In this document: positions 2,895-23,479 of the stretch, one piece after another | Numbering within the stretch: position 1 is the stretch's first letter | How the letters are laid out: each line of letters opens with the position of its first letter | Source of the DNA: Terriglobia bacterium | GTDB lineage: Bacteria > Acidobacteriota > Terriglobia > Terriglobales > Acidobacteriaceae | Direction of reading: 5' to 3' | DNA: 33,294 bases | Assembly (NCBI GenBank): GCA_032252755.1 | Contig: JAVUPY010000028.1 | Coordinates: forward strand, 1 to 33,294 | The notes under the pieces: model-generated | What the model was told of the DNA's origin: nothing | Database searches by the model: none | Seen by the model: the letters and a program-made list of their open reading frames with translations, nothing else | Made by a program: the position numbers and the translations under genes

Positions 2895-3938
2895 TTAGCT
2901 TCTCTGTCGGTAAAGAGAGCAGACGCAACGCTTGCACACGGCATTTGAATCCACCTGCAATTCTCTTCGGAAGTTCAGTGCCCTATCAGAGTTCAGCGCG
3001 TCTTTCAGATTTGTAGCCCCAAGCTTCCCAATTGGGGCATGGAAGAAACACGGTCGAATGTCACCATTTACTTCAATCACTGCTGATACCCAGGGAGCAT
3101 TGCACGGTGGTGCGATCGGAGCTTCCAGCCCGAGTTGGGCGCGGAACTGCCGGACAATTCGGCGCAACTTGTAGGGACTTTCCGCGATGAAGCCGGTTGC
3201 GATCTCCTGGCCGTACTCGCGAATGAGTTCCTCGATTTCATTCCCAAGTGACAAGATTTCATCGTGTGTAAGCGCAACCTGCTCCTGTCGGGCTAGTGGC
3301 CAGATCAGTTCCCGATTAAAAGCGGTGGAGGTCACGTCTGCTGCGAGAAAAGATACCGAAGCGAGTCCGAGCTCGCGCGACACCCGGACAGTCTCACGGA
3401 GGCACCTGTGATTGGAACGCTGAACGGTAGTACGGGCGCGGATGGGAAGATTCGACGAAAGTGACTGGACCCGCGCGATACCAGCGCTCATGGTTTCGAA
3501 GGCGTGAGGCACTCGGCGAATCTCGTTGTGGACGACAGCGGGACCGTCGAGCGAGACGATGACTTCATCCATGCTCTCAGCGATTTCCGATGCGTACTTG
3601 CCTATCAGTAGTCCTGCGGTAAGCAAAGTGAGACGGATGTTCAGTTTCCGCAGTGCTGCAGCGAGGACGAAGAGGCCGGGGTTCATCAGCGGTTCCCCGC
3701 CGGAGAAGACAACCCATTGCACGCGGAGGTCGCGGATCGAGGCCAAATGTGGCTCAAGATCGGACAAGGTGAGGTCACGGCTTTCAGCGGTCCGCCAGAT
3801 GTCGCACATGACGCAACGGCAGTTGCAGCGGCTGTGCGCCATAAGAATTAGGATGGAAAGTTCACTGATGATGTTGTGGTTGCGATCCGGAACTTCCACG
3901 AATTGGGGCGTGATTTCAGAGCCAGGCAGTGCTGACAT
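2895..3938 (-). CDS. Radical SAM protein with SPASM-like C-terminus
   Basis: The 347-aa protein has the [4Fe-4S]-SAM motif CxxxCxxC (Cys38, Cys42, Cys45 in CNCRCVMC) preceded by a beta strand LSILILMAHSRC. The SAM-binding FSGGEPLMNP follows, as does a radical-SAM barrel with SLDGP. The C-terminus carries further cysteines (PPCNAP, RPCFFH and CKRCVC), typical of SPASM/twitch auxiliary-cluster domains that modify peptides or other complex substrates. I chose the ATG at 3938 rather than the upstream in-frame ATG at 3956 because GGAGGTTGCGGA sits just before it at ideal spacing. The start lies inside the preceding methyltransferase-amidohydrolase gene (23-nt overlap), so the two are translationally coupled. 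Substrate unknown; it could be a RiPP maturase or a sactisynthase-like, anSME-like or heme-type enzyme. Confidence 0.85.
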   Translation of the reverse strand: MSALPGSEITPQFVEVPDRNHNIISELSILILMAHSRCNCRCVMCDIWRTAESRDLTLSDLEPHLASIRDLRVQWVVFSGGEPLMNPGLFVLAAALRKLNIRLTLLTAGLLIGKYASEIAESMDEVIVSLDGPAVVHNEIRRVPHAFETMSAGIARVQSLSSNLPIRARTTVQRSNHRCLRETVRVSRELGLASVSFLAADVTSTAFNRELIWPLARQEQVALTHDEILSLGNEIEELIREYGQEIATGFIAESPYKLRRIVRQFRAQLGLEAPIAPPCNAPWVSAVIEVNGDIRPCFFHAPIGKLGATNLKDALNSDRALNFRRELQVDSNAVCKRCVCSLYRQRS

Positions 3939-5877
3939 TCCGCAACCTCCTGCCATTCATGTATAAGTCGCAACCTAGATAGCGGATCGCATCTGCGAAA
4001 AGGCGACTGAGCGGGGCCCGCACCCAGCGGACGAGCCCGTCAATCTCGAGCGGACGTAGCCCGCGTGAAAGATGCTCGGGAATTCGCGCCAGCATTTCGT
4101 CCGACGCGAGCTGCACTCGGCCACCGCGGATGACGAGATCGATGTCTCGATAAGAAAGGCGCGTGAGCGTCTCGGCGGGCGACGCAGCTGATGCGCGAAC
4201 AGCAATAAGGTCAGCCATAGCACCGACTCGGATCTGGGCAAAACCATCTCGAAGACGAAGAATGCGGGCGGAGTTGTTGGTCGCTTGCGAGTAGAGCTCG
4301 TTCGCGGGAATACCTAGTTGCGCAGCAAAACGCAGTTCGTCAAGGAAATCCCCATTGGCGGTGAGAGACGAATCGCTGCCGAGTGCGACGTTGCGCACCG
4401 AGCGGATCATGTCGGGTGAGTGCGTGCGCCCAAAGAGGAAAGCATTTGAAGTTGGACACCAGATGAGTGCGGCGTCCTCACGATTGATAATCCGGACGGC
4501 CTCGTGGTCAAACGCGAGGCCATGGACGATTACGGTGCGAGAGTCGACAGCACCGGCGCTGACGAGATCGGCGAGATCGTGACGTGCTCGGGAGTCGACG
4601 CCTTCGGCGACATGGATAATGAAAGGGCATTCGGGAGCCGTGCGGTCGTGGCGCTTCTGGAGATTCTTCTCGAGAGCAATGGAGTGCGCCCAGGCGAACT
4701 CGCGAACGACCCGGACGGGAAAATCCTCTGATAGCATGTCGTCCGTCAGAGGGTTGTGATGACATACCGTCGTGACTCCGCAGAGGAGGTTACGCAGGGC
4801 TCCGAACCAGATTCGGGTGGATTTCGGGATTCGCTTGTAGTGGGAAATGATCCGGGCATCTTGTGTGTGAATGTCCGCGTACCATTCCGCGCAGTTCTCG
4901 TACAGACCGTGGCCGAGGCGCGGGAACAGCGAGAACTCGAGGTGATCGTGCGCGTTGATCAGGCCGGGGAGCACGGCATATCCGCTTAAATCGATTCCGG
5001 TAGCGGTTTGCGGTGTGGCGGTGACCGAATCGATGCGCCGCTGCTCGAGATGCAGTGAGCTCAGTATAAAGTCGGTAGGGGTCAGAGCGACTTGGCCACC
5101 TCTGAGGTCAGCCACGTCCGTGATCGCGGTCGGTATTTTACTGACGCACGTCTGCTTACTGCGGCAGGAATTGCTCGACCGCGGTCGCCGGAGTTGCAGG
5201 ATAAAGATCGCAGGGTACCCCAGTGCGCCTTCACCCAGCGGAACGCGACCGGCGCGACAGAGTAACTGGATTTCGGGCGGTCCGAACTTGGGTTCGATTT
5301 CGGCCGCAACCTCCAGTCCGGCCCGCTCGAAAATTGTCTTCAGGAACTCGACTTCCCACTCCTCAGTGCCGAGGTGCACCAGTCCGGCGGTATGGCGGAA
5401 ACTGCGGTTCCAGTGAAGCGCGCGAACAGTTCGCGGATGGAGGTCGGAGATGAAAGCTGTGCCGCCCGGACGGAGCAGACGCGCGACCTGAGCGGCAAAC
5501 CGCTGCGGATCAGGCAAGTGCGACAGCACGAACGACGAAAGGATGAGGTCAGCCGATTGCTCCGTGAATGCCACGGATGTGCAGTCACCCTGGAATAACT
5601 TCGCGCGAGGGCCGAGCTTAATGGTGGCCCGCTCGAGCATTTCAGCGGAAATATCGACGCCGCGCAGGCTCGCGGGCGAATTGCGATAAAGTGCAGCGAG
5701 CCATCGCCCGGTGCCGCATCCGAGATCGACCACGTCCTTACCTTCCACCCGTGGAAGCAGCGCACTGAGCACACGTTCTTCTAGAGAGAGCATCGGGTTC
5801 GGCTGCTCGTCGTAAACCTGCGCCCAGAGTGCGTAGGCCTCAAGCGATGACAATGAACCTGTGGCGGAGTCGGCCAT
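3916..5877 (-). CDS. Methyltransferase-amidohydrolase fusion protein
   Basis: One uninterrupted 653-codon frame encodes two enzymes. Residues ~1-225 are a class I SAM methyltransferase (motif I VVDLGCGTG at 49-57, acidic GVDIS at 73-77, LLRPGG at 134-139). After an Arg/Ser/Cys-rich linker (~228-250), residues ~255-600 form a COG0402-type amidohydrolase (cytosine/chlorohydrolase/SAH-MTA deaminase class). Its metal ligands are all visible: His310 and His312 (HDH), His422 (IHVAEG), His452 (VHG) and Asp502 (GSD). The start ATG at 5877 follows the previous stop by 1 nt and has a GGAGGAG upstream. No internal start with a ribosome-binding site is visible at the junction, so this is a genuine fusion on present evidence. 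A C-terminal extension of ~50 residues is unassigned. Removal of S-adenosylhomocysteine made by the methylases is an attractive but unproven role. Confidence 0.85.
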   Translation of the reverse strand: MADSATGSLSSLEAYALWAQVYDEQPNPMLSLEERVLSALLPRVEGKDVVDLGCGTGRWLAALYRNSPASLRGVDISAEMLERATIKLGPRAKLFQGDCTSVAFTEQSADLILSSFVLSHLPDPQRFAAQVARLLRPGGTAFISDLHPRTVRALHWNRSFRHTAGLVHLGTEEWEVEFLKTIFERAGLEVAAEIEPKFGPPEIQLLCRAGRVPLGEGALGYPAIFILQLRRPRSSNSCRSKQTCVSKIPTAITDVADLRGGQVALTPTDFILSSLHLEQRRIDSVTATPQTATGIDLSGYAVLPGLINAHDHLEFSLFPRLGHGLYENCAEWYADIHTQDARIISHYKRIPKSTRIWFGALRNLLCGVTTVCHHNPLTDDMLSEDFPVRVVREFAWAHSIALEKNLQKRHDRTAPECPFIIHVAEGVDSRARHDLADLVSAGAVDSRTVIVHGLAFDHEAVRIINREDAALIWCPTSNAFLFGRTHSPDMIRSVRNVALGSDSSLTANGDFLDELRFAAQLGIPANELYSQATNNSARILRLRDGFAQIRVGAMADLIAVRASAASPAETLTRLSYRDIDLVIRGGRVQLASDEMLARIPEHLSRGLRPLEIDGLVRWVRAPLSRLFADAIRYLGCDLYMNGRRLRNVSTAWL

Positions 5878-5878
5878 T

Positions 5879-7342
5879 TTACAGGCTCTCCTCCTTCGGC
5901 TTGCGCAATTCGATGAATCGCTGGGCCCAGCGAATTTCGTCGGGGTGTGAATACATCTTTGTGGCGTACCGCCATGAACTGAGGCTCCTGAGCATGGCGC
6001 GGCCCCAGCGCGGAGCGCGGATATCCTGCACCGTAGGCCAGCGTGCGCCGACGACAGTTTCGAAATTGTCAATGAGCTTCTTGGTTTTACGCTTGAGCCA
6101 GGGTGTATTGGGATCGATGCGGACCGTGAAGTCCATCCACTTCTTCGTCGCCCATTCTTCGGGGGTCGTCGGAAATTCGATGCGCCCGTCGACATCGCCG
6201 TACATCGCCTCGCGCTGCGGGACGGGCGTGTAGTGGTAAATGATGATCTCGGATTCTGGATTGATACGCTTGATCTTTCGAATGAACGCAAGCGTCTCAG
6301 CGGTGTCGCGCTCGGGGTCGCGCGGATTGCCGATCACGAAAGAGAATTCGGGAATGATTCCAAAGTAGCGGATGCGCTCGGCGAGTTCGAGTGTCTGGGC
6401 GGTCGTAATTCCTTTCTGCATCTCTTTGAGGGCCCAGTCGGACCCAGATTCAGCGCCGAAAAAGATCATGGCACAACCGGCGCGACGGATGGATTCGAGC
6501 GTCGAGTCGGAATAGCCTACGACGGTGTCGATGCGGCCTTCACACCACCAGCGTAGATTGAGCGGTGCAAGGCGATTGCAGAGATCACGCGTGTGGTCCT
6601 CACGTAGAAAGAAATTCATATCATAGAACTGGACGGAGTCGGTGCCGTGGTTCTTCGCGAGGTGCCGCAGGACGGCTTCGGTGCGCGCTGGACTCTCCAT
6701 CTTTTCGCGGTTTCCGTACGCAGCGTGTACTCCGCAGAAGCTGCACTTGAAGGGACAACCGATGCTAGCTTGGTGGGCGGCAGTACGGCGCCCGAAGAAC
6801 GATGGACGAAGGTATTTCTCCACCGGAATCGCGTGAAATGGCATCACCGGGAACGCGTCCGGTGCTTTCATTAGGCGTTCTGGGTTGTGGCGATGCAGGC
6901 CGAAGATGTCGCGATACGAGAGGCCCTTGATGTCGTCGGGTTTACCTTTCCCACGAAGGGCATCGAGCAATTCGAGAAGCGTGTCTTCTCCCTGGCCTCG
7001 CACGGCGTAGTCTACGTACTTTGCATTGAGCGCCGCGTCTGCGTAGATCGATGGAAAGTAGCCTCCCCAAGCGATGGCAACCGTGGGACGTAAGGACCGG
7101 ATCTCGCGACAATTCTCCATTGCTGAAGCCATTTGAGGGCCGGGCATGACCGTGACACCTAGAAGTTCGACACGGTTACGGTCTATGAGATCGACAATTG
7201 TCGCGACCGGGTCGTGATCGACGTTGCCGTCGACAATGGCATATTCCTCGCGGCCTTCGAGCACGGCAGCGAGCGCAAGCACCGACAGCGGGAAGCGACG
7301 GTTGCGGGGCTTCGTAGAGCGCGGATTGAAGAGAACGATCAT
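5879..7342 (-). CDS. B12-binding radical SAM protein (singleton of the locus)
   Basis: The 487-aa protein has an N-terminal Rossmann-like cobalamin-binding domain (~1-140; LLGVTVMPGPQ at 60-70, WGGYFPS, DYAVRGQGE). The radical SAM cluster motif is CPFKCSFC at 196-203, and FGAESGS marks the SAM-ribose region. The classical DxHxxG cobalamin motif is absent, as is usual in class B radical SAM methylases and relatives (BchE/Fom3-like). It is transcribed from an ATGA overlap with the zinc-ribbon methyltransferase, and the methyltransferase-amidohydrolase fusion follows 1 nt after its stop. Likely reactions are methylation or cyclisation at unactivated carbon or phosphorus. Substrate unknown. Confidence 0.86.
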   Translation of the reverse strand: MIVLFNPRSTKPRNRRFPLSVLALAAVLEGREEYAIVDGNVDHDPVATIVDLIDRNRVELLGVTVMPGPQMASAMENCREIRSLRPTVAIAWGGYFPSIYADAALNAKYVDYAVRGQGEDTLLELLDALRGKGKPDDIKGLSYRDIFGLHRHNPERLMKAPDAFPVMPFHAIPVEKYLRPSFFGRRTAAHQASIGCPFKCSFCGVHAAYGNREKMESPARTEAVLRHLAKNHGTDSVQFYDMNFFLREDHTRDLCNRLAPLNLRWWCEGRIDTVVGYSDSTLESIRRAGCAMIFFGAESGSDWALKEMQKGITTAQTLELAERIRYFGIIPEFSFVIGNPRDPERDTAETLAFIRKIKRINPESEIIIYHYTPVPQREAMYGDVDGRIEFPTTPEEWATKKWMDFTVRIDPNTPWLKRKTKKLIDNFETVVGARWPTVQDIRAPRWGRAMLRSLSSWRYATKMYSHPDEIRWAQRFIELRKPKEESL

Positions 7343-8340
7343 GCATTCACCATGCGAGCAACGTAGATTCGAAAGCTGGATGGCTCACGTTTGCCCTGGA
7401 GTCTTGCAAGGGTCGGACGTAGGGCCCAACGGAGGCCATAACTTGGTTGGTGAGTCTGCCAGCGGATTCCGAATAACTTTTCCATGTCACGTAATCGACG
7501 GTCGGTAAGGTATTCGCGGCTGGCGAGCGCGTCAGAGGGAAACCCGTACTGTTGCTGAAAAAAGGCGCGGCGCTCGCGGAGCATCTGTCGGCCGCTCTCT
7601 TCCTTCGAATACCAGGGCGTATCAGCAATGATGACCACGCCGCCCTTGCGAAGGCAGCGAATGGCTTCGCCAAGTGTCTTCGAGTAGTTCTCGGAGTAAT
7701 GAAACGAGGCGTTAAATATGACGCAGTCGAACTGGGTGCCTTCAAAGGGCAGCGCATCGAGTTCTGCCTGGAACCTGGGGAAGAGGCGCTCGAGTTTCTG
7801 CAGGTAATGCGTGGCAGCGCCGAGACCGTCGCTGTCATTGATCAGGAGATCGACCGCAACCGGACGATGCCCAAGCAATGAGAGGCGGTAGCTGAGCCAT
7901 CCATTCCCCGCGCCGAGATCGAGGATGGTGATACCTGAACGATTTCCCGCGACCTTCGGCAAGAGTTCCCGTTCGACGTATCGGTAAGTCTGGGCGCGAA
8001 TGCTCCACTGAGACTGGTTCTTCCCCGTAAGATCTCGAAACGGGAGCGCAAGATAATAGGCGGCGTCTTTACTTCCTCTGCCTTCGGCAGCGCGAACGAT
8101 TTGGTATTCGGTCAGGAATCGCTTGTAGTGCTCTTGGCGCTCTGGCGGAAGCGCAAGCAGGATTCCGCGCTGATGGTCGAGAACGAAGGAGCACCGCGGG
8201 CAGGTTATGCCATTGTTGAACGGAGTGCTGGTGTAATCAACCGCGCCCAGGTTGGACGTGCAGCGCGGGCAACGCAGGCGAAGTTTGCCGAGCTTTCCGC
8301 CAACGATTGATTGAGCACGGAGATTCGGGAGCGCGTTCAA
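7339..8340 (-). CDS. Class I SAM methyltransferase with N-terminal zinc ribbon
   Basis: The 333-aa protein starts with two CPRC knuckles (Cys24/27 and Cys47/50), a Trm112/RlmA-like zinc ribbon. A class I methyltransferase domain follows from ~110 (motif I TILDLGAGNG at 138-147; AVDLLIND for motif II; LRKGGVVIIAD for motif V/VI). The FNASFHYSENY segment replaces the usual N/DPPY-type motif, so it is more likely an O- or N-methyltransferase of a small molecule than a nucleic-acid base methylase. It overlaps both neighbours by 4 nt (ATGA), fixing the start at 8340 and implying coupled translation. Substrate unknown. Confidence 0.85.
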   Translation of the reverse strand: MNALPNLRAQSIVGGKLGKLRLRCPRCTSNLGAVDYTSTPFNNGITCPRCSFVLDHQRGILLALPPERQEHYKRFLTEYQIVRAAEGRGSKDAAYYLALPFRDLTGKNQSQWSIRAQTYRYVERELLPKVAGNRSGITILDLGAGNGWLSYRLSLLGHRPVAVDLLINDSDGLGAATHYLQKLERLFPRFQAELDALPFEGTQFDCVIFNASFHYSENYSKTLGEAIRCLRKGGVVIIADTPWYSKEESGRQMLRERRAFFQQQYGFPSDALASREYLTDRRLRDMEKLFGIRWQTHQPSYGLRWALRPTLARLQGKREPSSFRIYVARMVNA

Positions 8341-9143
8341 GACGACCTCCGGAAACGAAGAAGCATGTGATCCCCCATGACCCGGAACAGAGGCAGGTGA
8401 TTGATGAGGCGGTCTACAGTCCGAAGCAGCGAAAAAATGCGGCTATGCTTTTGCGCCAGCGATTCCACGTAAGATGGCGGGACTGCGACACCGATTCCGG
8501 AGACATTGATGTACCAGAACCACGGAGCGAACGCCTGGCGGATCTCAGAGACCCGCGGATACCATACCTCGACCGGGACCCCGCTGATCGTTGAAGAGAC
8601 GTGTCCGCTCCAACGACGAATCGCTTTTGCCCAATCGCCTCTTACTCCGTACCACAACGATTCCCATAGGCTAAAGGGAGTCGAGAAGACGAGAGCCACT
8701 TCAGCACCCGGGCGGAGGAGTGTTGCGAGTTGCTGTGCGACGTTGGCGAGATCGGCAACACAGTTGAGTCCTGAGAAGTTGGAGAATACCCCATCGAAGC
8801 GCCGATCGATCAAGAGCCCGCCAATATACTCATTTGGCAGTACAACGAACCGAACGGGAACGCGAGGCCGACGCCGCGCCTTCTTCTGGTTGGCTACCTC
8901 GATCATTGCCGGGGATGCATCACACCCGGTAACGCTGATTCCTTTTCCCGCCAGATGCAGAGCGTCTTCACCCGTGCCGCAGTTGAGTTCGAGGACCCGA
9001 TCACCCGGCTTCCAGAGACCGTCGATTTCTTCCCACACTGAGCCTCGCTGAGACGTGCCAACCAGCGAGTGAGTGAAGACCTCGTCATAGATTTCGGCGA
9101 TCTCGTCGAATGCAGGAATTGTATGAACAACGGCGGTACTCAT
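8337..9143 (-). CDS. Class I SAM-dependent methyltransferase
   Basis: The 268-aa protein has an AFDEIAEIYDEVF opening typical of ubiE/Methyltransf_11-25-like enzymes. Motif I is RVLELNCGTG (49-58), motif II GCDASPAMIE, motif IV FDGVFSNFSGLN and motif V LLRPG. The C-terminal ~90 residues (Trp/Tyr-rich, WYGVRGDWAKAIRRW onward) form a cap that would define the substrate. The start ATG at 9143 overlaps the stop of the upstream B12-radical SAM gene by 4 nt, and its own stop overlaps the next start in the same way. It probably methylates an intermediate of the locus; no substrate can be named. Confidence 0.85.
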   Translation of the reverse strand: MSTAVVHTIPAFDEIAEIYDEVFTHSLVGTSQRGSVWEEIDGLWKPGDRVLELNCGTGEDALHLAGKGISVTGCDASPAMIEVANQKKARRRPRVPVRFVVLPNEYIGGLLIDRRFDGVFSNFSGLNCVADLANVAQQLATLLRPGAEVALVFSTPFSLWESLWYGVRGDWAKAIRRWSGHVSSTISGVPVEVWYPRVSEIRQAFAPWFWYINVSGIGVAVPPSYVESLAQKHSRIFSLLRTVDRLINHLPLFRVMGDHMLLRFRRSS

Positions 9144-10528: not shown

Positions 10529-12006
10529 TAGTCTCCAGCCTCCGTGGAGAGCGCATTCAAAGACACGAAGACGTCACCTGGGGAGTGAAACGCTGGAAGT
10601 TCGGTGGCATCGTGGTTCCGGCTCAGTTGCTCCCGGCGCTCGATTTCGTTCCAGAGCGACTCTGCGCGGTTTGCGGATTCGGTTTCGCCGGACCAGCCTT
10701 CGACTTCGAGGTGGAGGGCATCGCGAATGAGACGGTAGAAGTCGTCGGTATAGGCGCCTTTGAACATTACGCAGAGGTCGTCGCTGTCATTCCAATTGCG
10801 CTTTGTGCCGAGTTGATCTCGGACACGCTGGTAGAAGCGCGTGTTGGGCAATGGGTACGAGAGCGACACACCGATGTCGTCGGGACGGGTACGGCGAACC
10901 AGGTCGACGGTTTTACGAATATCTGACCAGGTCTCTCCGGGATAACCGAATTGAAGAAAGAAGCAGGCTCGAATGCCAACTTGGAGCAGGTTTTCGCGAG
11001 CAATATAGACGTCCTCGACCCGAAGACTCTTCTCCATGGCGTCGAGCACGGGTTGCGAGCCGGATTCGACGCCCATCCACACTTCCTCACATCTGGCGCG
11101 CGACAGAGCGACAGCGACTTCGCTCGTTATAAGGTCGGCACGAGCCTGAATCTTGAACGGCACCTGGGCCCGGCGGTGCTCCACTTCATCGGCGAACGCA
11201 GATACCCAGCGACGGTTGAGACCGAAGATGTCGTCGGCGAACCAGATATGATCGGCGCCATAGCGATCGCGGAGCTCGAGCATCTCATCGGCGACTTGGG
11301 CCGGCGGATTCACGCGGAAGTTGTCCCCGAAGATGGGTTTTGCGCACCAGTTACAGCGGAAAGGACACCCGCGACTGGAAATCGCATTGAGCGAGAAACG
11401 TCCGTGAGCGCGGAGCCATGCGTCGCGATAGAGATCGTGGTCAACGAGATCGCGCGCGGGCGGCGGAAGAGGCGATGGATATCGAAGAGCCTGACGCGGC
11501 TCGGTTCGGTGGACGTGAGTCCCGCTGGAGTCAAGGAACGCAATTCCGGCAACTGACTCCACTCGTTGGCCGGCAAGTATCGCCAGGGAAGTTTGGAGCA
11601 GTGTGTGCTCGGCTTCGCCGATGAGTGCATATTCGAAACCGTGCGAGAGGAATTCGAGAGTATGGTCCGTCGCGTCTGAGCCGTGAACGACAACCCGAGC
11701 GCCGAAGGAGCGGGCCTCCTCAGCCATTTCGAACGCGACCTCGCGCATGCGGGTGAGGCACATTTTGGAGAGGAAGTTGAAATCGTCTTCGTAGACGGCG
11801 ACGATGGCGGGACGATGCTGTTCAAGTGCTTCGGCGAATCCGTCGGGCGAAGTGAGCATGGGATCGAAGAGCCCAACGGAGAGCCCGGATTGACGCAGCA
11901 GGGCCGCGGCGTAGAGGGTACCGAGCGGTGGGTATGGCTGCATTTTTCGAGCCTGCTTACGGTCGAACGGTAAGTGGTACGAATGTGTCAGCAGGACATC
12001 GGTCAC
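10528..12006 (-). CDS. B12-binding radical SAM protein (pair A, member 1)
   Basis: The 492-aa protein has a B12-binding domain (~1-145; opening MTDVLLTHSYHLPF, PYPPLGTLYAAALL, YALIGEAEHTLL). Its radical SAM motif is CPFRCNWC at 214-221, followed by IWFADDIFGLN and MGVESGS. The layout and several motifs match the downstream gene at 9140-10528, indicating tandem duplication followed by divergence; this copy has an Asp/Phe-rich loop (VYEDDFNFLSKM) where the other has YANLMTRRN. The start at 12006 lies 12 nt after the preceding stop. Substrate unknown. Confidence 0.86.
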   Translation of the reverse strand: MTDVLLTHSYHLPFDRKQARKMQPYPPLGTLYAAALLRQSGLSVGLFDPMLTSPDGFAEALEQHRPAIVAVYEDDFNFLSKMCLTRMREVAFEMAEEARSFGARVVVHGSDATDHTLEFLSHGFEYALIGEAEHTLLQTSLAILAGQRVESVAGIAFLDSSGTHVHRTEPRQALRYPSPLPPPARDLVDHDLYRDAWLRAHGRFSLNAISSRGCPFRCNWCAKPIFGDNFRVNPPAQVADEMLELRDRYGADHIWFADDIFGLNRRWVSAFADEVEHRRAQVPFKIQARADLITSEVAVALSRARCEEVWMGVESGSQPVLDAMEKSLRVEDVYIARENLLQVGIRACFFLQFGYPGETWSDIRKTVDLVRRTRPDDIGVSLSYPLPNTRFYQRVRDQLGTKRNWNDSDDLCVMFKGAYTDDFYRLIRDALHLEVEGWSGETESANRAESLWNEIERREQLSRNHDATELPAFHSPGDVFVSLNALSTEAGD

Positions 12007-12018
12007 GTGTTCACCTCA

Positions 12019-13515
12019 TTAGCAAACGTCGGCAATGCTTTCGCTGAGCGGTTGGCCCGTCACGAGAGAACGTCTTGTAGTGAATCGCTCAGCTTTACGG
12101 GCGAGCCACAGCTCCCATGGAAACGAGTAACGGTTCGAACGAACGCGCCAGCGCAGTGGAACGCCCAGCATGCGGCGCAGTCCTCGCCGCAGCAGCGGGT
12201 ACTCGAGCGTGGCTTTGCGAATCTGATTGTTCAGCAGGAAATACTCGAGCGCGCGGCGAAGGCGCTGGAGTTCCTCTCCTTGTAGCCACGGAAGAACGTT
12301 TTTACCCAGCGGCAATTCCACCCATTCCCGCAGCGACTGCGGCTCGTGGACGCCTAGCTCGCGAAGCTGCGGCCAGATGGGAATGCCGGGATACGGCGTG
12401 AAAATGTTCGGCGAAAAGCTCACGTTCCAGTAGAGGCGGGCAATGTCGCCCATAGTCTTTAGCGTCTCAATGCGGTCGGCCTCGGTTTCACCGGGATAGC
12501 CGAAGATCAAATTAAATGTGACATGAATGCCGCCGAGCATCGCTTTGCGAGCGGTCTCGTACATCTCGTCGACACGCTGGTGCCGCTTGTTCATCAGCTT
12601 GAGCACGGGAGCGGAAGTCGATTCCGTGCCGAAGCCCATGTGGGTGACGCCGCTCTCGCCGAGAAGACGGACCTCGTCTTCGCTCATGCGGCAGAGAAAG
12701 TCAGTCGAGGCTTGGAACGTCCAGCGGAATTTGAGTTTCGAGTCGACGAAGCCGCGGGCGATGCGAAGAGCGCGATGGAGGTCAACGGGAAAGTTGGAGT
12801 CGAGCATGGCGACCTCTTCGGCGCGATAGCGCGGAACGAGGTCGGTGACTTCGGCGACGACGCGGTCGGACTCCAAGGCGTTGAAGCGGCGCTTGTAGAA
12901 AACCATGTCAGTGCAGTAATTGCATGCGTAGGGGCAGCCGACGCTGGTAGCGTAAGCGAGTTTACGGATGCCGCTGACGCGCTCGTAGGAGTCGTGGTCG
13001 GCGAGATGAAATGCGGGCAGCGGGAGATCCTCGATCCACGTCAGGCGGCGCTCGGGTGCGTGCTGAATCATCCCAGCGGGCTTGGAGGAGACGCTGGCGA
13101 CGTCGGCGATGTCGCGATGTTCGGCGAGGCGCTCCGCGATTTCGAGCAGCGTCAGGTCACCCTGGCCGCGGACGACGTAATCAACAAAGCGCTCCTGCAA
13201 GGTCTGCGTGGGAAGCAGGCTCGGATGCCAGCCGCCAAAGATCACAGGGACCGAGGGGTGTAACTTCTTCATCGATTGCGCGACGCGGATGGCGCCGAGG
13301 ATCATGGGGCCGGTGAGCACGGAGATACCGAGACAAAGTGCGCCGGCGGATTCCTTCAGTACGCGGGCTTCGGCGTTTGGATCGATGACGGCATCGATAA
13401 GGACCACTTCGAAGCCGGCTTGCAGCAGAGGCGATGCCAGCGAGAGCAGGCAGAGAGGTGCGCTCAGTGGCGGTCCGTCGTATGCGGGATAGAAGAGGAC
13501 GACTTTGCCTTTCAT
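12019..13515 (-). CDS. B12-binding radical SAM protein (pair B, member 2)
   Basis: The 498-aa protein has a BchE-like layout: B12-binding domain (~1-135; GGWHPSLLP at 94-102, VDYVVRGQGD at 111-120), radical SAM motif CPYACNYC at 194-201, FGTESTS, and a C-terminal domain with FTPYPGIPIWPQL and VLPWLQGEELQRL. It is strikingly collinear with its upstream neighbour: the cluster motif sits at the same residue numbers and the C-terminal landmarks match. I chose ATG 13515, which gives the ATGA overlap seen repeatedly in this row; an ATG at 13521 is also possible. Longer in-frame extension upstream is antisense-like Arg/Pro-rich sequence and not real. Substrate unknown. Confidence 0.86.
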   Translation of the reverse strand: MKGKVVLFYPAYDGPPLSAPLCLLSLASPLLQAGFEVVLIDAVIDPNAEARVLKESAGALCLGISVLTGPMILGAIRVAQSMKKLHPSVPVIFGGWHPSLLPTQTLQERFVDYVVRGQGDLTLLEIAERLAEHRDIADVASVSSKPAGMIQHAPERRLTWIEDLPLPAFHLADHDSYERVSGIRKLAYATSVGCPYACNYCTDMVFYKRRFNALESDRVVAEVTDLVPRYRAEEVAMLDSNFPVDLHRALRIARGFVDSKLKFRWTFQASTDFLCRMSEDEVRLLGESGVTHMGFGTESTSAPVLKLMNKRHQRVDEMYETARKAMLGGIHVTFNLIFGYPGETEADRIETLKTMGDIARLYWNVSFSPNIFTPYPGIPIWPQLRELGVHEPQSLREWVELPLGKNVLPWLQGEELQRLRRALEYFLLNNQIRKATLEYPLLRRGLRRMLGVPLRWRVRSNRYSFPWELWLARKAERFTTRRSLVTGQPLSESIADVC

Positions 13516-15020
13516 CCGCATGCGGTTTGCACCTTGGCGGGTTCGAGCCGCTTGGCGTCGACGGCGGGCTTGAGCGCCGCCGTGCGCTGCTTGAGCTTGT
13601 CGTTGAGCCAGAGCTCGACAGGAAATTCGTAAAAATCGTGATCGAGGCGCCAGCGCGCTGGGAGCGAAATGGCTTTTTGCGCGAGGCGCGTGACACGGTC
13701 GCGGGTGTCGGCGGCAATTGGGATTCGATCGAAGGCGATGCGGAGATAGTCGCGCATCACCTGCAGGCGGCGATGCTCGCGCCCGTTGAGCCACGGGAGA
13801 ACGGTGTAGCGGGGGAAGAAGTCGGCCCAGCCTTCCAGCGATGCAGGAAGTTGAATGCCGATTTCGTCGGCGTGTTCGAGGATCGGTGCGCCCGGATATG
13901 GAGTGAAAATGTTGGTCCAGAATTCGGCGCCGGGAAAGCGGCGGCAGACGTCCATCATGAAGTCGACAGTCTGGCGGCACTCTTCGCGACCTTCGCCGGG
14001 GAACGCGAAGATGATGTTGAAGGACGGGCGAATATCGGCTTCGAGACAGCGCGCAGCGCTTTCGTAAATGGAATCGAAGTCCTGGAACTCCTTGTTCATG
14101 AGCTTCAGGATCTTCGGCGAGCCAGAGTCGACGCCCTGGCAGATCTGCTGGAGGCCGCTGCGGCGCAACAACTTCAGGTCTTCCCTGCTGAGTCGCGCAG
14201 TGAGGTTAGTGGTCGCCTGGATGCTCCACTTGAAGTTAGCACCGGCGCGGACCAGTCCTTCGCCGATGTGACGAGCGCGATCGAGGTCGACGAGGAAGTT
14301 GTCGTCAACCACCCAAAGCAGTTCGAGATTGTAACGGCGGGTCAGGTCGACGGTTTCTTCGACGAACTGTTCGGGCGAGAGAGCGTTCCACTTGCGGCCG
14401 TAGACACCAGCGTTCGTGCAATACGAACAATTGAAAGGGCAAGCGAGGCTCGAGGTGTACATCGCCCAGCGGCGTCCGCAACTGCGCTCGTAGGCGTCAA
14501 AGTCTGCGATCTGGTATGCCTTGGGGGGCATCTCGGCGAGCGCGCGCAAGGGCCTCTCAGGCGTGAGGATCAGCCTGCCTTCCCGCTTGAAACCGATGCC
14601 GCTGATGAGATCGACCGCGGAGCGCGACTCTACGTGCTGCACAAGTTCGAGTAGCGACTCTTCGCCCTGCCCACGAACCACGTAGTCGATGTAAGGCGCC
14701 TCTAGTGTCTGACGCGGCAGCAGGGATGGATGCCAACCGCCGAGGATGATCGGGAACTCTGGGTTCCACTCCTTCACTGCGCGGGCTATGGCGACGGTCT
14801 CGCGAATCATAGGTCCGGTGACGAGCGAGATCCCAAGACAGATCGCGTCTTTGACTTCTTCAACAACGCGCTTCTGAAAATTCGGAGTGATGGTGGAGTC
14901 GATGAGCACCACTTCATAACCGGCTCGCAGCAGTGGGGTGGCAACGGCAAGAATTCCCAGGGGCGCCGTCGCCTCGGTGCTGGCGAATGAGGGAAAGAAG
15001 AAGACGACTTTGCGGGACAT
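13512..15020 (-). CDS. B12-binding radical SAM protein (pair B, member 1; first gene of leftward row)
   Basis: The 502-aa protein has the B12-binding domain (~1-135; GISLVTGPM, GGWHPSLLP at 94-102, YVVRGQGEE), radical SAM motif CPFNCSYC at 194-201, VVDDNFLVD, QGVDSGS, and a C-terminal FTPYPGAPILE and VLPWLNGREHRRL. The family includes BchE and other cobalamin-dependent cyclases and methylases. I prefer ATG 15020 (GGAG about 9 nt upstream) over an in-frame GTG at 15035 that lacks a ribosome-binding site. As the first leftward gene it should be driven from the 127-bp divergent region containing the 15077-15142 inverted repeat. Confidence 0.87.
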   Translation of the reverse strand: MSRKVVFFFPSFASTEATAPLGILAVATPLLRAGYEVVLIDSTITPNFQKRVVEEVKDAICLGISLVTGPMIRETVAIARAVKEWNPEFPIILGGWHPSLLPRQTLEAPYIDYVVRGQGEESLLELVQHVESRSAVDLISGIGFKREGRLILTPERPLRALAEMPPKAYQIADFDAYERSCGRRWAMYTSSLACPFNCSYCTNAGVYGRKWNALSPEQFVEETVDLTRRYNLELLWVVDDNFLVDLDRARHIGEGLVRAGANFKWSIQATTNLTARLSREDLKLLRRSGLQQICQGVDSGSPKILKLMNKEFQDFDSIYESAARCLEADIRPSFNIIFAFPGEGREECRQTVDFMMDVCRRFPGAEFWTNIFTPYPGAPILEHADEIGIQLPASLEGWADFFPRYTVLPWLNGREHRRLQVMRDYLRIAFDRIPIAADTRDRVTRLAQKAISLPARWRLDHDFYEFPVELWLNDKLKQRTAALKPAVDAKRLEPAKVQTACG

Positions 15021-15076
15021 GCCTCTTGTCTCCACGAGAGAGACGATACGGTCGAAGCGATTGCCCGGTTGTCACA

Positions 15077-15142
15077 GCAATGTATCTCCGCTGTCATTTG
15101 TTCGCGGCGACGGTTAGTACCACCAGTTTCGCGATACATTGC
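15077..15142. promoter_or_regulatory. Perfect 10-bp inverted repeat in the divergent promoter region
   Basis: GCAATGTATC at 15077-15086 is mirrored exactly by GATACATTGC at 15133-15142, with 46 bp between arms (56 bp start to start, about 5.3 helical turns). It occupies most of the 127-bp spacer between the leftward B12-radical SAM row and the rightward HPrK-like gene. Each arm reads GATACATTGC toward its own gene, so it could be a shared operator pair or part of symmetric -10-like elements. The right arm lies only 5 nt before the HPrK-like ATG at 15148, which may mean that transcript is nearly leaderless. Confidence 0.5.
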
Positions 15143-15147
15143 AGAGG

Positions 15148-16137
15148 ATGCGACGGTTCTCACTCGACAACGACGCGCTTCCGATCCGTGCACAACTGGT
15201 CGTTGCAGGATGCAGATCAGTAGTACGCACGAACTCCGCCAAAGTAGTTTCTTCCTTGGGGAAATGGAGTACGCCCAAAGAACCCACACTCGAACACGAG
15301 TTCGAAGTCGCCGTACTGGTCGACCGCGGACTACGAAGACATTCGGCTCTTCCTCAATTCCGTGGGCGCGGACGATACGTGTTCGCAACCTTCCACAGTG
15401 TTGAGTCGTTCGTTTTCGATCTGCGAGAGCGTCGCGTCTTCGCTGCGGTATCGGATGAAACCGCACAGGACGTTGCATTTTGGACCACAGTCCTGATTCC
15501 TATCGCGATGGGAGTTCTGGGACCGATGCTCGGACTTTCACCGATGCACAGCGCCTGCCTCGAGATAAACGGCCACGGATTGCTGCTTGCAGGAGTCTCC
15601 GGTGCTGGCAAGTCGACATTAGCGACGGCCTTAGCGACGGAAGATATGGCGCTGGTTTCTGATGACTGGATCTATGCCGCCGAAGCGGACGGGTATGTGA
15701 CCGCTCACGGCTTGGGAGTGCCGCTGAAACTAATGCCCGATGCTGCGCAATATTTCGATGAGCTGCGAACGGAGGAGCCGCGGCTTTCTCTCAACGGAGA
15801 ACTGGCCTTCGAGATAGATGCGGGGAAGCTGCGCATAGAGGTCGCAGAGCGCTGCGCGCCCGAGTGCATCGTTTTCTTGGAGCGGTCCGATGGACAAAGC
15901 AGAATTGCCCCGCTGGAACGCACCGTGGCGAGGGAGTTCTTCGAACACAGCGCGGAACCGTTGCCCCCGGAGTTTGCCCACGCTGCCGAACGCCGTAAGC
16001 ACATCATTCATTCCGTTACCGATCGGGATTGTTGGCACTTTCAATATGCCGGACCTCCGCGCGAAGGCGCGAGGATTCTACGACAGTTTTTTGAGGACAT
16101 CTACCATGTCGAACGCGCCAGTGCTTCAGCTATCTAG
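15148..16137 (+). CDS. HPr-kinase-like (HprK-related) protein
   Basis: The 329-aa protein has a C-terminal P-loop domain: Walker A GVSGAGKST at 149-157, followed by LVSDDWIY (Asp172/173, Walker B-like). This matches HPr kinase/phosphorylase-type folds used in lasso-peptide tailoring kinases and HprK-related kinase systems. The N-terminal ~135 residues form the usual variable lead-in (YVFATFHS, FVFDLRERR, MHSACLEI before the P-loop). It phosphorylates a protein, peptide or sugar hydroxyl in known relatives; the substrate here is unknown. The ATG at 15148 is chosen, with an in-frame TTG at 15139 possible; neither has a well-spaced ribosome-binding site. Its 3' end overlaps the next gene by 32 nt. 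Confidence 0.75.
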   Translation: MRRFSLDNDALPIRAQLVVAGCRSVVRTNSAKVVSSLGKWSTPKEPTLEHEFEVAVLVDRGLRRHSALPQFRGRGRYVFATFHSVESFVFDLRERRVFAAVSDETAQDVAFWTTVLIPIAMGVLGPMLGLSPMHSACLEINGHGLLLAGVSGAGKSTLATALATEDMALVSDDWIYAAEADGYVTAHGLGVPLKLMPDAAQYFDELRTEEPRLSLNGELAFEIDAGKLRIEVAERCAPECIVFLERSDGQSRIAPLERTVAREFFEHSAEPLPPEFAHAAERRKHIIHSVTDRDCWHFQYAGPPREGARILRQFFEDIYHVERASASAI

Positions 16138-16516
16138 CCCGCCCGATTTGTTACGGCGCTTCGTACACTTGCCGAACGAACTCTGCCTTCGTAGCGCCGA
16201 TTGGCATTTGCATTTCATAACGAATGAACCGCGGCTCGCTACGGCGCTCGGAAACACTGCGGTCGTGTGTGATGGCGGCACCAGCAAGATGAAATGTACG
16301 ATCCTTTGCGACTCCGAACTCCCGCCGGAGTCAGGCGAGGGGATCTCAACAGAAACAAGCGACACAGTCTTCCTCAGCTTCGGTCGCGGCTGCCTCATCA
16401 CAGTTGATCGCGAGAACCGGGAAATAATCGGGTTCGTCGCTGCCGAGCTCCTGGACGGCTCATGGTCCGCCGTAATCGTCCCCGCGCTCATGGCCGTAAT
16501 GGCGGGAATGCAATGA
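16106..16516 (+). CDS. Stand-alone protein resembling the N-terminal domain of the HPrK-like kinase
   Basis: The 136-aa protein starts at ATG 16106 inside the end of the kinase gene and ends in an ATGA overlap with the nucleotidyltransferase gene. It has no P-loop. Residues ~34-133 line up by eye with residues ~21-123 of the neighbouring kinase: HFITNEPRLATALG against VVRTNSAKVVSSLG, TVFLSFGRGCLITVDREN against YVFATFHSVESFVFDLRE, and AVIVPALMAVM against TVLIPIAMGVL. It therefore looks like a duplicated N-terminal half without the catalytic domain, perhaps a substrate-binding or chaperone subunit. A distant PqqD-like role cannot be excluded. No signal peptide. Confidence 0.65.
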   Translation: MSNAPVLQLSSPPDLLRRFVHLPNELCLRSADWHLHFITNEPRLATALGNTAVVCDGGTSKMKCTILCDSELPPESGEGISTETSDTVFLSFGRGCLITVDRENREIIGFVAAELLDGSWSAVIVPALMAVMAGMQ

Positions 16517-17703
16517 CAGCCGATGTGATTCAGCAACGACGCGCCGTGCTGGCGTGCTTTAAACCGAAGCCCGATCTCGGTGAGTTTCTGAGGATTACCA
16601 CGAGTATTGAACGCACTCAGCTACTACGTTGGCTCGACGAGAGCGGAATGGCGATCTACTTGGTCCAACGGTTGGCAGAACATGAACTCTTCCAGCAAAT
16701 CGATGTAGATCTTCGCCAAGCGCTGTACCAGCGGACGGAAGCGAACCGACGCCGAACTTCGGTCCTGCTCCGTGAGTTTGAGCGGGTGAATACTGCCCTG
16801 CAATCCGTCGGAATCGAATATGCGGTTGTGAAGGGATTCACATTACGTCCTGAGTTCTGTCCCGAACCCTGGTTGCGACATCAATCGGATATTGACCTGC
16901 TGATCTCATCAACGGCGCTTGCTCCGGCAACCGAGTGCCTTGGATCGCTTGGATACAAACTGGAAGCAGGCGAAGGTTCAGGAGAAATTTGTTTCGCCCT
17001 TCGGTCCGAACACATGCCGTCCCCACAGGACTTCATCTACGACCCTCCGCGTCACCAGCACATTGAGGTTCACACTGATTTTTACCAGGCGCATTGCGGC
17101 GTTTCGCTCGAAGTGGGCCGCGACTGGGCAGAACACATCGAATGGCGAGAGATTGCTGGGGTGCGCTTCCCTGCCCTCCACCTGCCACACCGATTCCTTA
17201 CACAGGTTCTGCATGTGTTCCGTCACACCTCTTCCTGGGCAAGAGTGGCATGGCTTTACGAAATTGCGCGATTCGTCGAGCGATTTGAGAACAACGATGA
17301 GCTGTGGCATACGACGGATTCGTTGCTCTATGACGATAACGCTCGCAGGGCCTGCGGCGTTGTTTGCGTACTCGTCACAAATGCGTTTGGAACAAAGTTT
17401 CCCGCGATCATCCAGGAAACTTGGATTCAGCCTCTCCCGGTTCGGCAAATGTCGTGGATCAGGGAACATGCGGACTTGTGGATGCTCAGCGACTTCGCGC
17501 ATGCCAGCAAAACGGGTCTACTGCTACAGCGCGAGTTCGCCGATTCGACATTAACTTGGTGGAGTTATCGCGCCGCTCGCTATCGGAAGGCAATCAGGAA
17601 GCTGCAAGCATCGGGACACACGGGACCGCGATTCCTGATGGAGCGGGTCCGCAGACACATGGACTATGTGTGGCAGTCACTGAAATGGTCGGCGCACAAC
17701 TAG
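16513..17703 (+). CDS. Nucleotidyltransferase family protein (PF14907-like)
   Basis: The 396-aa protein shows features of the uncharacterised NTP_transf_5 family: YAVVKGFTL (Lys107-Gly108), an Arg before the acidic pair, HQSDIDLLI (Asp126/Asp128 as metal ligands), and a downstream IEVHTDF (~184-190). The start ATG 16513 overlaps the preceding stop (ATGA), so translation is coupled. Relatives occur beside HPrK-like kinases in lasso-peptide and HprK-related gene sets, where they are proposed to transfer a nucleotide to the modified product or protein. The C-terminal ~200 residues are helical and Trp/Arg-rich. The gene converges on the cytochrome row with a 20-nt gap. Confidence 0.8.
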   Translation: MTADVIQQRRAVLACFKPKPDLGEFLRITTSIERTQLLRWLDESGMAIYLVQRLAEHELFQQIDVDLRQALYQRTEANRRRTSVLLREFERVNTALQSVGIEYAVVKGFTLRPEFCPEPWLRHQSDIDLLISSTALAPATECLGSLGYKLEAGEGSGEICFALRSEHMPSPQDFIYDPPRHQHIEVHTDFYQAHCGVSLEVGRDWAEHIEWREIAGVRFPALHLPHRFLTQVLHVFRHTSSWARVAWLYEIARFVERFENNDELWHTTDSLLYDDNARRACGVVCVLVTNAFGTKFPAIIQETWIQPLPVRQMSWIREHADLWMLSDFAHASKTGLLLQREFADSTLTWWSYRAARYRKAIRKLQASGHTGPRFLMERVRRHMDYVWQSLKWSAHN

Positions 17704-18586: not shown

Positions 18587-18605
18587 AGAGTCTCCTTGGC
18601 CTGAT

Positions 18606-21919: not shown

Positions 21920-21927
21920 GGCAACGC

Positions 21928-23477: not shown

Positions 23478-23479
23478 GT

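Follow-up and report, generated by a model that had tools for sequence, protein, structure and literature searches.

The window, 33,294 nt of DNA from a Terriglobia bacterium (GCA_032252755.1, contig JAVUPY010000028.1, positions 1 to 33,294, forward strand), carries nine abutting minus-strand genes and a divergent three-gene plus-strand arm between 2895 and 17703. The nine-gene arm encodes a SPASM radical SAM enzyme, a methyltransferase–amidohydrolase fusion, five B12-binding radical SAM enzymes and two methyltransferases. The plus arm encodes an HPrK-like kinase, a small HPrK-N-like protein and a PF14907 nucleotidyltransferase (NTP5). Every domain named in the original prediction is present where it had been placed, and the genes do overlap or nearly abut: intergenic distances in the minus arm lie between –23 and +12 bases, and at 127 bases the gap between the arms is the largest within or between them. 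A nucleotide-sugar dehydrogenase gene (Pfam) adjoins the locus. Neither the Rfam scan nor the tRNA scan of the window gave a hit.

The SPASM enzyme (2895–3938, minus strand, 347 aa) matches PF04055 and PF13186, the latter at 38.2 bits against a cut-off of 21.5, as expected for the SPASM-like protein foreseen here. Its nearest NCBIfam models score far under cut-off, and its closest solved sequence is BlsE. The B12-binding enzymes lie on the same strand at 5879–7342 (B12_1), 9140–10528 (B12_2), 10528–12006 (B12_3), 12019–13521 (B12_4) and 13512–15020 (B12_5). All five exceed the cut-offs for both PF02310 and PF04055, which bears out the predicted count of cobalamin-binding enzymes; the assignment of B12_2 also draws on an alignment. 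The CxxxCxxC motif is kept in all six radical SAM proteins. B12_4 and B12_5 are 41% identical, and B12_4 is absent or relocated in some relatives. In a compact variant of the cluster (L168–L170), B12_3 is the only B12 enzyme found.

No B12 enzyme reaches the curated NCBIfam cut-off of a named equivalog (BchE, HpnJ, HpnR, ladderane type, ApyD, PhpK). The highest score among the models listed, relative to cut-off, is that of B12_2 against TIGR04013 (110 of 251 bits, or 44%), and the same protein gives 152 of 481 bits against the BchE model. Weak scores against HpnJ, HpnR and the ladderane-type model could hint that the enzymes modify a membrane lipid, be it a hopanoid, a ladderane-like lipid or an ether lipid. 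Yet every score is far under the curated cut-off, and BchE and ApyD score equally well. No lipid gene was recognized among the recurrent neighbors, and a lipid product would not account for the riboflavin genes or the MFS module described below. We consider this reading very unlikely.

The three predicted methyltransferase domains were found by Pfam, one of them fused to the amidohydrolase. The fusion (3916–5877, minus strand, 653 aa) has a COG0402-like, deaminase-type C-terminal half with an Amidohydro_1 match; in other loci, the methyltransferase and the amidohydrolase are separate genes. MT2 (7339–8340, minus strand) has a Cys-rich N-terminus, judged by eye. MT3 (8337–9143, minus strand) was found in 73 of 80 genome–contig loci and adjoins B12_2 in most of them. 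The metal and acid residues of the amidohydrolase (HxH, H, E, H, D) are invariant in 31 sequences, and its fold is closest to nucleoside and nucleobase deaminases (Z about 32), for example adenosine deaminase (Z 32.7) and isocytosine deaminase (Z 30.6). By its active-site set and fold, the C-terminal half is thus a putative COG0402-type deaminase, in agreement with the class first proposed.

On the plus strand, the HPrK-like P-loop kinase (15148–16137; P-loop GVSGAGKST) matches Hpr_kinase_C (PF07475) at 33.3 bits, exactly the cut-off, with only positions 9–56 of PF07475 aligned. It scores well under the TIGR00679 and TIGR04352 cut-offs; by the former (35.4 bits; cut-off 240), it is not an HPr kinase proper. 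The protein at 16106–16516 is weakly related to the N-domain of this kinase (BLASTP E 0.002 in a single comparison; hhalign E 3.3e-5, probability 72%), in line with the homology suggested originally, and small proteins occupy the same place, directly after HPrK, in L043, L133, L182 and L187. NTP5 (16513–17703) has an NTP_transf_5 match of 127 bits (cut-off 31.2), as predicted. Its DxD (D126, D128) and KG motifs are invariant in 15 sequences. The fold is that of a Pol-beta-type nucleotidyltransferase, with small-molecule nucleotidyltransferases among the closest folds, although MenT toxins are equally close. No useful relative of the kinase or of NTP5 emerged from sequence searches of solved structures.

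The prediction that the window lacks NRPS/PKS, lasso cyclase and lanthipeptide synthetase genes also held among the window proteins scanned with Pfam and NCBIfam, which included neither an asparagine-synthetase-like cyclase nor a B-type protease of the lasso peptide kind. SPASM and B12-radical SAM enzymes and HPrK/PF14907 proteins do occur in RiPP loci, so the cluster might mature a RiPP with its precursor encoded elsewhere. But the gaps in both arms leave no room for a precursor gene, in line with the original remark that no clear precursor is visible. In addition, the small families present in at least four loci, as called by a gene finder with a 40-codon floor that was not tuned for short genes, are cytochrome c, cupredoxin, HPrK-N-like and one family of ∼104 residues. 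This last family has a signal-peptide-like start and is found in L068, L095, L119 and L122 but not in the window. Neither the protein upstream of B12_3 in L155 nor L065:16536–17741 has a Pfam match. A RiPP product seems most improbable. Passages of lasso peptide papers mention an HPr kinase and a nucleotidyltransferase.

The genes predicted to form the locus are there, but the relevant neighborhood extends past 17703 to about 24994. All of its further genes lie on the minus strand. A cytochrome c with a lipoprotein-like N-terminus and one CxxCH (17724–18227, Pfam) is followed by a COX2-like cupredoxin (18230–18643, Pfam), a porin-like outer-membrane protein with weak, sub-cut-off porin matches (18908–19933), a sensor histidine kinase and response regulator (20147–22653, Pfam), and, at 22770–24994, a cupredoxin/CarboxypepD-like protein, named from sub-cut-off matches, with a protein that is porin-like by eye. 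Pfam gave no match for window positions 23480–24994 or for L071:8350–11157. In relatives, genes for the cytochrome c, the cupredoxin, outer-membrane proteins, the sensor kinase and the regulator are again found with the cluster.

To describe the distribution of the locus, we counted orthologs of the B12 enzymes in 396 genomes of the phylum, with a match of at least about 490 bits, a threshold of our choosing, defining those of B12_1 and B12_2. B12_2 is present in 36 genomes, B12_1 in 34, B12_3-like proteins in 37 and B12_4/5 in 26. B12_2 and B12_1 occur together in 32 genomes, at most 20 kb apart in 27, and B12_2 and B12_3 in 31, within 20 kb in all 31. Exceptions are few: B12_1 without B12_2 (G116, G266), B12_2 without B12_1 (four genomes), B12_3-like without B12_2 (six, three of them with the compact variant) and B12_4/5 without B12_2 (one). 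These counts rule out a chance neighborhood, and homologs scattered singly are confined to these exceptions. All nine genes are kept in order in 8 of 40 fetched stretches. Among the best 80 matches listed, a smaller core that includes B12_2 is present in other phyla, and named strains of Edaphobacter, Granulicella and Terriglobus have related loci, with Terriglobus albidus and Edaphobacter lichenicola among the cultured carriers, which opens the locus to testing. The genomes are related and some loci represent the same contig twice (L044/L085, L160/L162), so the counts are not independent, and p-values for B12 co-occurrence and for the MFS association below are descriptive only. Genes in relatives were called with our own codon-model gene finder, with which starts may be misplaced and short genes overlooked. 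Many neighbors were named by eye or by similarity grouping, with Pfam run on representatives; L078–L081, with too few training hits, were excluded from the grouping. Conserved gene order and co-occurrence both argue for the single pathway originally proposed, and it is near certain that the gene set at 2895–17703 is a conserved pathway, far beyond chance.

We then compared 42 family genomes of our choosing: 19 with the full cluster, 3 with the compact cluster and 20 same-family negatives among those listed. The outer-membrane protein gene is present in 22/22 positives (including G352, where it has an in-frame stop) versus 5/20 negatives, and NTP5 (E<1e-20) in 22/22 versus 1/20. The predicted co-occurrence of the HPrK-like/nucleotidyltransferase cassette with the B12 genes is thus seen for NTP5. 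In five positives, the outer-membrane protein and NTP5 genes lie apart.

Much of the neighborhood is polysaccharide machinery, which speaks against a riboflavin-branch reading. In several genomes, export, flippase, polymerase, chain-length and glycosyltransferase genes (Pfam on L180) lie beside the NTP5 and outer-membrane protein genes, and such genes also lie near some B12 clusters. A GT87-type protein (Pfam on one) recurs in 17 loci, some from the same genome twice. The distant loci L073/L074 have a glycosyltransferase-family gene and, by eye, a sugar-epimerase-like gene, and in the window there is the adjoining nucleotide-sugar dehydrogenase. The cluster could therefore make or decorate an unusual sugar or lipid-linked unit of a surface polysaccharide, activated by the kinase and nucleotidyltransferase and polymerized and exported by Wza/Wzx/Wzy. 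Polysaccharide genes are common among Acidobacteriaceae, however, and these neighbors could be bystanders. L176, L177 and L178 have NTP5, HPrK and outer-membrane protein genes without nearby Wza or Wzy homologs, and no export or polymerase gene is among the window proteins scanned, although the contig ends there. A sugar would also leave the cluster-linked GTP cyclohydrolase II and DHBP synthase unexplained. We regard a polysaccharide role as possible, if somewhat unlikely.

A further module combines a TonB receptor, HPrK and an MFS permease. Among the 42 family genomes, the permease gene was found in all four negatives with both NTP5 and outer-membrane protein genes, in 0/16 remaining negatives and in 2/22 positives. 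We examined 23 stretches around the MFS gene, from 22 of 27 genomes with this gene: HPrK lies within 3.5 kb in 22 and a TonB receptor is present in 19. In G225, the MFS gene is about 15 kb from NTP5, and HPrK was not seen in the stretch examined. A clean mutual exclusion of synthesis and import is nearly true in the 42 genomes but fails in 250 family genomes, of which 10 have MFS and B12 genes, 17 MFS only and 38 B12 only (odds ratio 2.9). MFS occurs in 6/34 genomes with B12_2 (counting G603, where the genes are split over contig ends), 4/14 with B12_3 only and 17/202 with neither. MFS and B12 genes are thus positively, not negatively, associated, and a division into producers and importers is not clean.

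The TonB receptor and MFS permease beside HPrK, together with the nearby cupredoxin and cytochrome c, would also suit a secreted metallophore or other exported natural product, with the TonB–MFS pair serving uptake or piracy and the two redox proteins handling copper or electrons. P450, PhyH oxygenase and UGT-type glycosyltransferase genes (Pfam) and, by eye, ABC-exporter-like genes are present in some clusters. But these oxygenases and the exporter are confined to subsets, no known metallophore gene was recognized, and a kinase and nucleotidyltransferase beside a transporter would better fit activation of an imported cofactor. This alternative strikes us as improbable.

Genes of the riboflavin pathway provide a clue to the scaffold. 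An extra GTP cyclohydrolase II gene was found in 7/22 positives, in each case adjoining the cluster, and in 0/20 negatives. G426, a further positive, has broken pieces of this gene on another contig. In the tree, the cluster copies (seven rows, two of them identical) group together with 100/100 support, and they retain the zinc cysteines and QEGRGIGL. A linked second DHBP synthase is present in 3/3 compact clusters, and no other intact second copy was found among the 42 genomes. These second copies are not monophyletic, and the G049 enzyme resembles housekeeping copies in being a RibBA whose RibA half has diverged. Few clusters have extra riboflavin genes, and two or three events may account for them. 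Neither gene was found in the window's 33 kb or in most fetched cluster loci. The original statement that the locus has no recognizable scaffold gene therefore stands for the window but not for these relatives, whose cluster-linked GTP cyclohydrolase II and DHBP synthase suggest a riboflavin-branch scaffold.

The locus very probably makes a small molecule by means of its five vitamin-B12-dependent radical enzymes. Our tentative reading, plausible but far from secure, is that the product is an undescribed vitamin-like metabolite of the riboflavin branch, activated by the kinase and nucleotidyltransferase and connected with redox proteins of the periplasm. We infer the flavin link from relatives, the window itself having no such gene. 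Also counting against this reading are the small number of clusters with riboflavin genes, the positive association of MFS and B12 genes, the arrangement in G225, the separated outer-membrane protein and NTP5 genes of five positives, the nearby polysaccharide machinery, the HPrK/PF14907 pair of L194 and the likeness of the NTP5 fold to MenT toxins. The nine-gene arm would then be a biosynthetic operon for a small vitamin-like metabolite, and the scaffold, in the window's version too, would most likely branch from riboflavin synthesis at the pyrimidine product of GTP cyclohydrolase II. Radical enzymes yield 5'-deoxyadenosine and S-adenosylhomocysteine; the amidohydrolase half might clear these compounds or else deaminate a pyrimidine-type intermediate. 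The B12-radical SAM enzymes and methyltransferases would then methylate or rearrange carbons, to give what is expected to be a heavily C-modified product. Whether made or imported, this product would be phosphorylated by the HPrK-like kinase and nucleotidylated by the PF14907 enzyme, much as riboflavin is converted to FMN and FAD. Cytochrome c, cupredoxin and outer-membrane proteins would be its likely users or partners, and non-producers may acquire it via the TonB receptor and MFS permease.

Taken furthest, the riboflavin-branch reading would make the product a new vitamin, namely a redox cofactor related to flavins or lumazines. The five B12-radical SAM enzymes would C-methylate or rearrange it, and its own HPrK-like/PF14907 pair would phosphorylate and nucleotidylate it. 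It would act together with cytochrome c and cupredoxin in the periplasm, and some soil Acidobacteria would make it while others import it via a dedicated TonB–MFS system. In all these particulars together this is a speculative proposal, and we doubt that every part will hold. Still, unusual carbon chemistry is to be expected of a conserved operon with five B12-radical SAM enzymes, and the co-inherited kinase, nucleotidyltransferase and redox proteins, with the separate TonB–MFS module of relatives, fit a shared vitamin or cofactor better than an ordinary antibiotic. Should the riboflavin link hold, it supplies a testable starting scaffold, and at least some HPrK/PF14907 pairs would be small-molecule activators.

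Among the titles and abstract openings listed from the open-licence literature, none describes such a locus, consistent with the view that it matches no known pathway, yet its parts have recognizable counterparts. The BchE, HpnJ, PhpK, TsrM, OxsB, AprD4, CysS and TokK families share the B12-binding and radical SAM domains and CxxxCxxC, and their solved members give sequence matches to the locus enzymes; here, by contrast, five such enzymes are in one operon and no characterized family claims them. COG0402-type deaminases (MTA/SAH deaminase, isocytosine deaminase, TrzN/AtzA) have the same fold (top rows Z 29–33) and the same full set of metal ligands as the locus amidohydrolase, which is 14–24% identical in the rows listed and, unlike them, is fused to or paired with a methyltransferase. 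The nucleotidyltransferases ANT(2'')-Ia and LnuA and the MenT toxins have the Pol-beta-type fold in common with NTP5 (Z about 9–13), at 8–15% identity and with extra helical parts outside the matched core. The same two protein types are adjacent in the HPrK/PF14907 pairs of lasso peptide, SynChlorMet and exosortase-type loci, and L194 too has such a pair in another setting. The pair studied here is instead tied to B12-radical SAM, cytochrome c and cupredoxin genes, or elsewhere to a TonB–MFS pair, and falls under the cut-offs of TIGR04249/04352/04355. As for riboflavin and FAD synthesis (RibA, RibB, RibD, RibF), some relatives' clusters have their own RibA and three a second RibB, whereas the window has neither, and its putative deaminase is an amidohydrolase. 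The locus kinase and nucleotidyltransferase belong to families other than those of the riboflavin/FAD pathway, but their paired logic would resemble that of RibF.

The window makes up one entire contig (C28; 33,294 bases) of a 5.39-Mb genome. Nine genes form the minus arm of the locus (15020-2895, minus strand), with gaps of -23 to +12 bases between them: those for the SPASM enzyme, a methyltransferase-amidohydrolase fusion (MTAH), B12_1, MT2, MT3 and B12_2 through B12_5. The plus arm, encoding an HPrK-like kinase, a small HPrK-N-like protein and the PF14907 nucleotidyltransferase NTP5, starts 127 bases away. Domain searches bore out the domain assignments originally made for both arms. The CxxxCxxC motif is retained in the SPASM enzyme and all five B12 enzymes, and against NCBIfam all six scored below the cut-offs of the named radical SAM families. 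B12_4 and B12_5 share 41% identity; other matches within the same genome are far weaker. Left of the nucleotide-sugar dehydrogenase gene, at 1-1400 of the window, are short ORFs only, one of which (395-721) resembles, by eye, a piece of a larger secreted-domain protein.

Among 396 genomes of the phylum, orthologues of B12_2, B12_1, B12_3-like and B12_4/5 were found in 36, 34, 37 and 26, respectively. B12_2 shares a genome with B12_1 in 32 cases, with B12_3-like in 31 and with B12_4/5 in 25; the partner lies within 20 kb in 27, 31 and 23 genomes, respectively, and all four types occur together in 23. We compared gene order in 40 stretches from relatives. All nine genes appear in the window's order in eight (L042, L043, L044, L046, L056, L057, L058 and L077), and in seven more the order is kept minus B12_4 or minus a detected MT2 (L045, L048, L054, L055, L060, L065 and L069). 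B12_4 is relocated in L050 and stands on its own, away from the cluster, in four stretches from four genomes (L047, L049, L075 and L076). The remainder are cut or overlapping (5/40; L051, L052, L053, L059 and L070), rearranged and distant (6/40; L063, L067 and L071-L074), reduced in gene number (5/40; L061, L062, L064, L066 and L068), or flanks only (4/40). A P450-family gene lies near the solitary B12_4 in L075 and L076. The minus-arm cluster and its relatives almost certainly represent one conserved pathway.

The best 80 loci from named genomes come mostly from Acidobacteriota, with additional records from Chloroflexota, KSB1, Actinobacteria, Gemmatimonadetes and Myxococcales. Many of these 80 loci are truncated. 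MT3 was found in 73, B12_3 in 71, B12_1 in 57, B12_5 in 52, MT2 in 50, the fusion or its halves in 47, SPASM in 45, B12_4 in 36, HPrK in 18 and NTP5 in 16. B12_1, B12_2, B12_3, B12_5, MT3, MTAH and SPASM occur together in 34 of the 80, and outside Acidobacteriota the commonest combination is B12_3-B12_2-MT3. A gene that similarity places with HPrK directly precedes B12_2 in L154 and B12_3 in L164. That position is taken by a more divergent protein in L160 and L162, which are one contig, and in L161 and L163; the L160 protein, the one analyzed, matches HPrK below the cut-off. A family of ∼300 residues lies before or near B12_3 in seven loci, mostly of Chloroflexota (L149, L150, L155, L157, L137, L067 and L073). 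Its L155 member gave no Pfam match, and a nucleotidyltransferase-like GS...DxD pattern is visible by eye; this family may replace NTP5 in those loci. In two Bryobacteraceae/Terriglobia clusters, multiheme cytochrome c genes come next (L127:9581-12501, with Pfam matches; L132:17661-20111), together with, by eye, a large outer-membrane-type protein.

We profiled 42 family genomes, of which 19 have a full cluster, 3 a compact variant (G049, G130 and G359) in which B12_3 is the only B12 enzyme found, and 20 no cluster. Each has at least two matches to GTP cyclohydrolase II. An extra copy is present in seven positives, namely four full clusters of one close group (G094, G155, G163 and G337) and the compact three, and it adjoins the cluster in 7/7. 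In the compact variant MT3 and B12_3 flank it within the operon; a single in-frame stop interrupts the copy of G130, and in G049 a fourth match lies ∼15 kb from the cluster. One cluster-linked copy scores 195 bits with Pfam. Cluster copies, which retain the zinc cysteines and QEGRGIGL, form one clade (seven rows, two identical) with 100/100 support, separate from housekeeping copies. The enzyme of Bryobacterales locus L122 falls outside this clade; L140 has a RibBA that could be a housekeeping gene. DHBP synthase is single-copy in 38/42 genomes; all three compact-cluster genomes have a second, ∼10-17 kb from B12_3, with families confirmed. These second synthases do not group together in a single clade; the G049 enzyme is a RibBA whose RibA half has diverged. 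G426 has DHBP synthase pieces, and broken GTP cyclohydrolase II pieces on another contig. In family RibBA proteins (L226, L228, L230, L232, L234, L236, L238 and L240) the GTP cyclohydrolase II half is strongly diverged, and the motifs are kept in a separate stand-alone enzyme. That both riboflavin entry enzymes have extra copies near one operon points to use of riboflavin-branch intermediates by the compact cluster. Since B12_3, MT2, MT3, amidohydrolase, HPrK and NTP5 are common to it and the window, we infer that the window's cluster may do so as well.

Among the families seen repeatedly around the cluster are a GT87-type protein (17 loci), cytochrome c (13), a cupredoxin (12), a second cupredoxin-like protein (10), a regulator (10), an outer-membrane protein (9) and a sensor kinase (8), counts that include some genomes twice. 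Two genes were profiled in the 42 genomes. The outer-membrane protein is present in 22/22 positives (one with an in-frame stop) versus 5/20 negatives, and NTP5, at E<1e-20, in 22/22 versus 1/20, with weaker matches in five negatives. At most 20 kb separate NTP5 from B12_2 or B12_3 in 18/22 positives, and the outer-membrane protein from them in 13/22; in the other nine, the outer-membrane protein is beside NTP5 in four (G241, G281, G352 and G426) and apart from NTP5 in five (G103, G233, G249, G329 and G370). Detached copies in L185, L189 and L190 sit among PhyH-, ABC- or flavin-reductase-like genes, accompanied by an uncharacterized family of ∼400 residues. In four negatives (G036, G147, G195 and G225) NTP5 and the outer-membrane protein are close together; in three of these, NTP5 matches the window's protein weakly and other NTP5 proteins well.

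HPrK and NTP5 have an MFS permease and a TonB-type receptor as neighbors in G036, G147 and G195; in G225, ∼15 kb separate the MFS gene and NTP5. Across the 42 genomes, the MFS gene occurs in 4/4 module-only negatives, 0/16 other negatives and 2/22 positives (G249, unlinked; G426, beside its NTP5 region). All 26 genomes with NTP5 and the outer-membrane protein, a count that omits G257 (diverged outer-membrane protein, no NTP5), have B12 genes, the MFS gene or both. The MFS gene and B12 genes are positively associated among 250 family genomes (MFS gene 27, B12 genes 48, both 10); some carriers of both may make and import the product, or MFS may export it. HPrK lies within 3.5 kb of the MFS gene in 22 of 23 stretches (22 genomes), which also hold the TonB receptor (19), outer-membrane protein (17), NTP5 (16) and cytochrome c (12). 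HPrK-MFS-TonB is thus a real module, and a possible import route.

We propose that the locus would serve to make, activate and use a vitamin-like small molecule that probably derives from riboflavin. That the product is a small molecule that is also transported is slightly favored. In several genomes, export, flippase and polymerase genes adjoin NTP5 or the outer-membrane protein, so the main rival is a building block of surface polysaccharide, a reading that leaves the extra riboflavin enzymes unexplained. For the vitamin-like molecule, a riboflavin-branch scaffold is a tentative assignment, at somewhat below even odds; HPrK and NTP5 acting as its activating pair is a little more doubtful, and a redox use is rather unlikely.

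The amidohydrolase half keeps all metal ligands and the acid across 31 sequences. For its structure model (mean pLDDT 87, with the first 51 residues unreliable), the best fold matches are adenosine/MTA/SAH-type deaminases (Z 32-33), followed by isocytosine deaminase (Z 30.6) and triazine hydrolases (Z near 30). Because rows at most one Z unit apart are treated as ties, the model leaves the enzyme with two candidate roles: to deaminate a pyrimidine, or to scavenge 5'-deoxyadenosine and SAH. Among the open-licence papers that the searches brought up, no such locus is described in a title or the start of an abstract, which is weak evidence of novelty. The NTP5 model (pLDDT 83.5) has a Pol-beta-type nucleotidyltransferase core, retains DxD, and has MenT1 (Z 12.7), ANT(2'')-Ia (11.8) and LnuA (10.9) as its nearest fold neighbors. 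HPrK keeps its P-loop, and its resemblance to HPr kinase is confined to that region. A different locus, L194 (G121:C7:66000-85999), encodes at ∼8900-13000 a PF14907-like NTP5 and a SPASM-like protein, alongside a protein of 103 residues, one that by eye is HPrK-like, and an ORF of 59 residues; possibly this locus is of the RiPP kind. HPrK and PF14907 proteins also occur in exosortase and lasso contexts.
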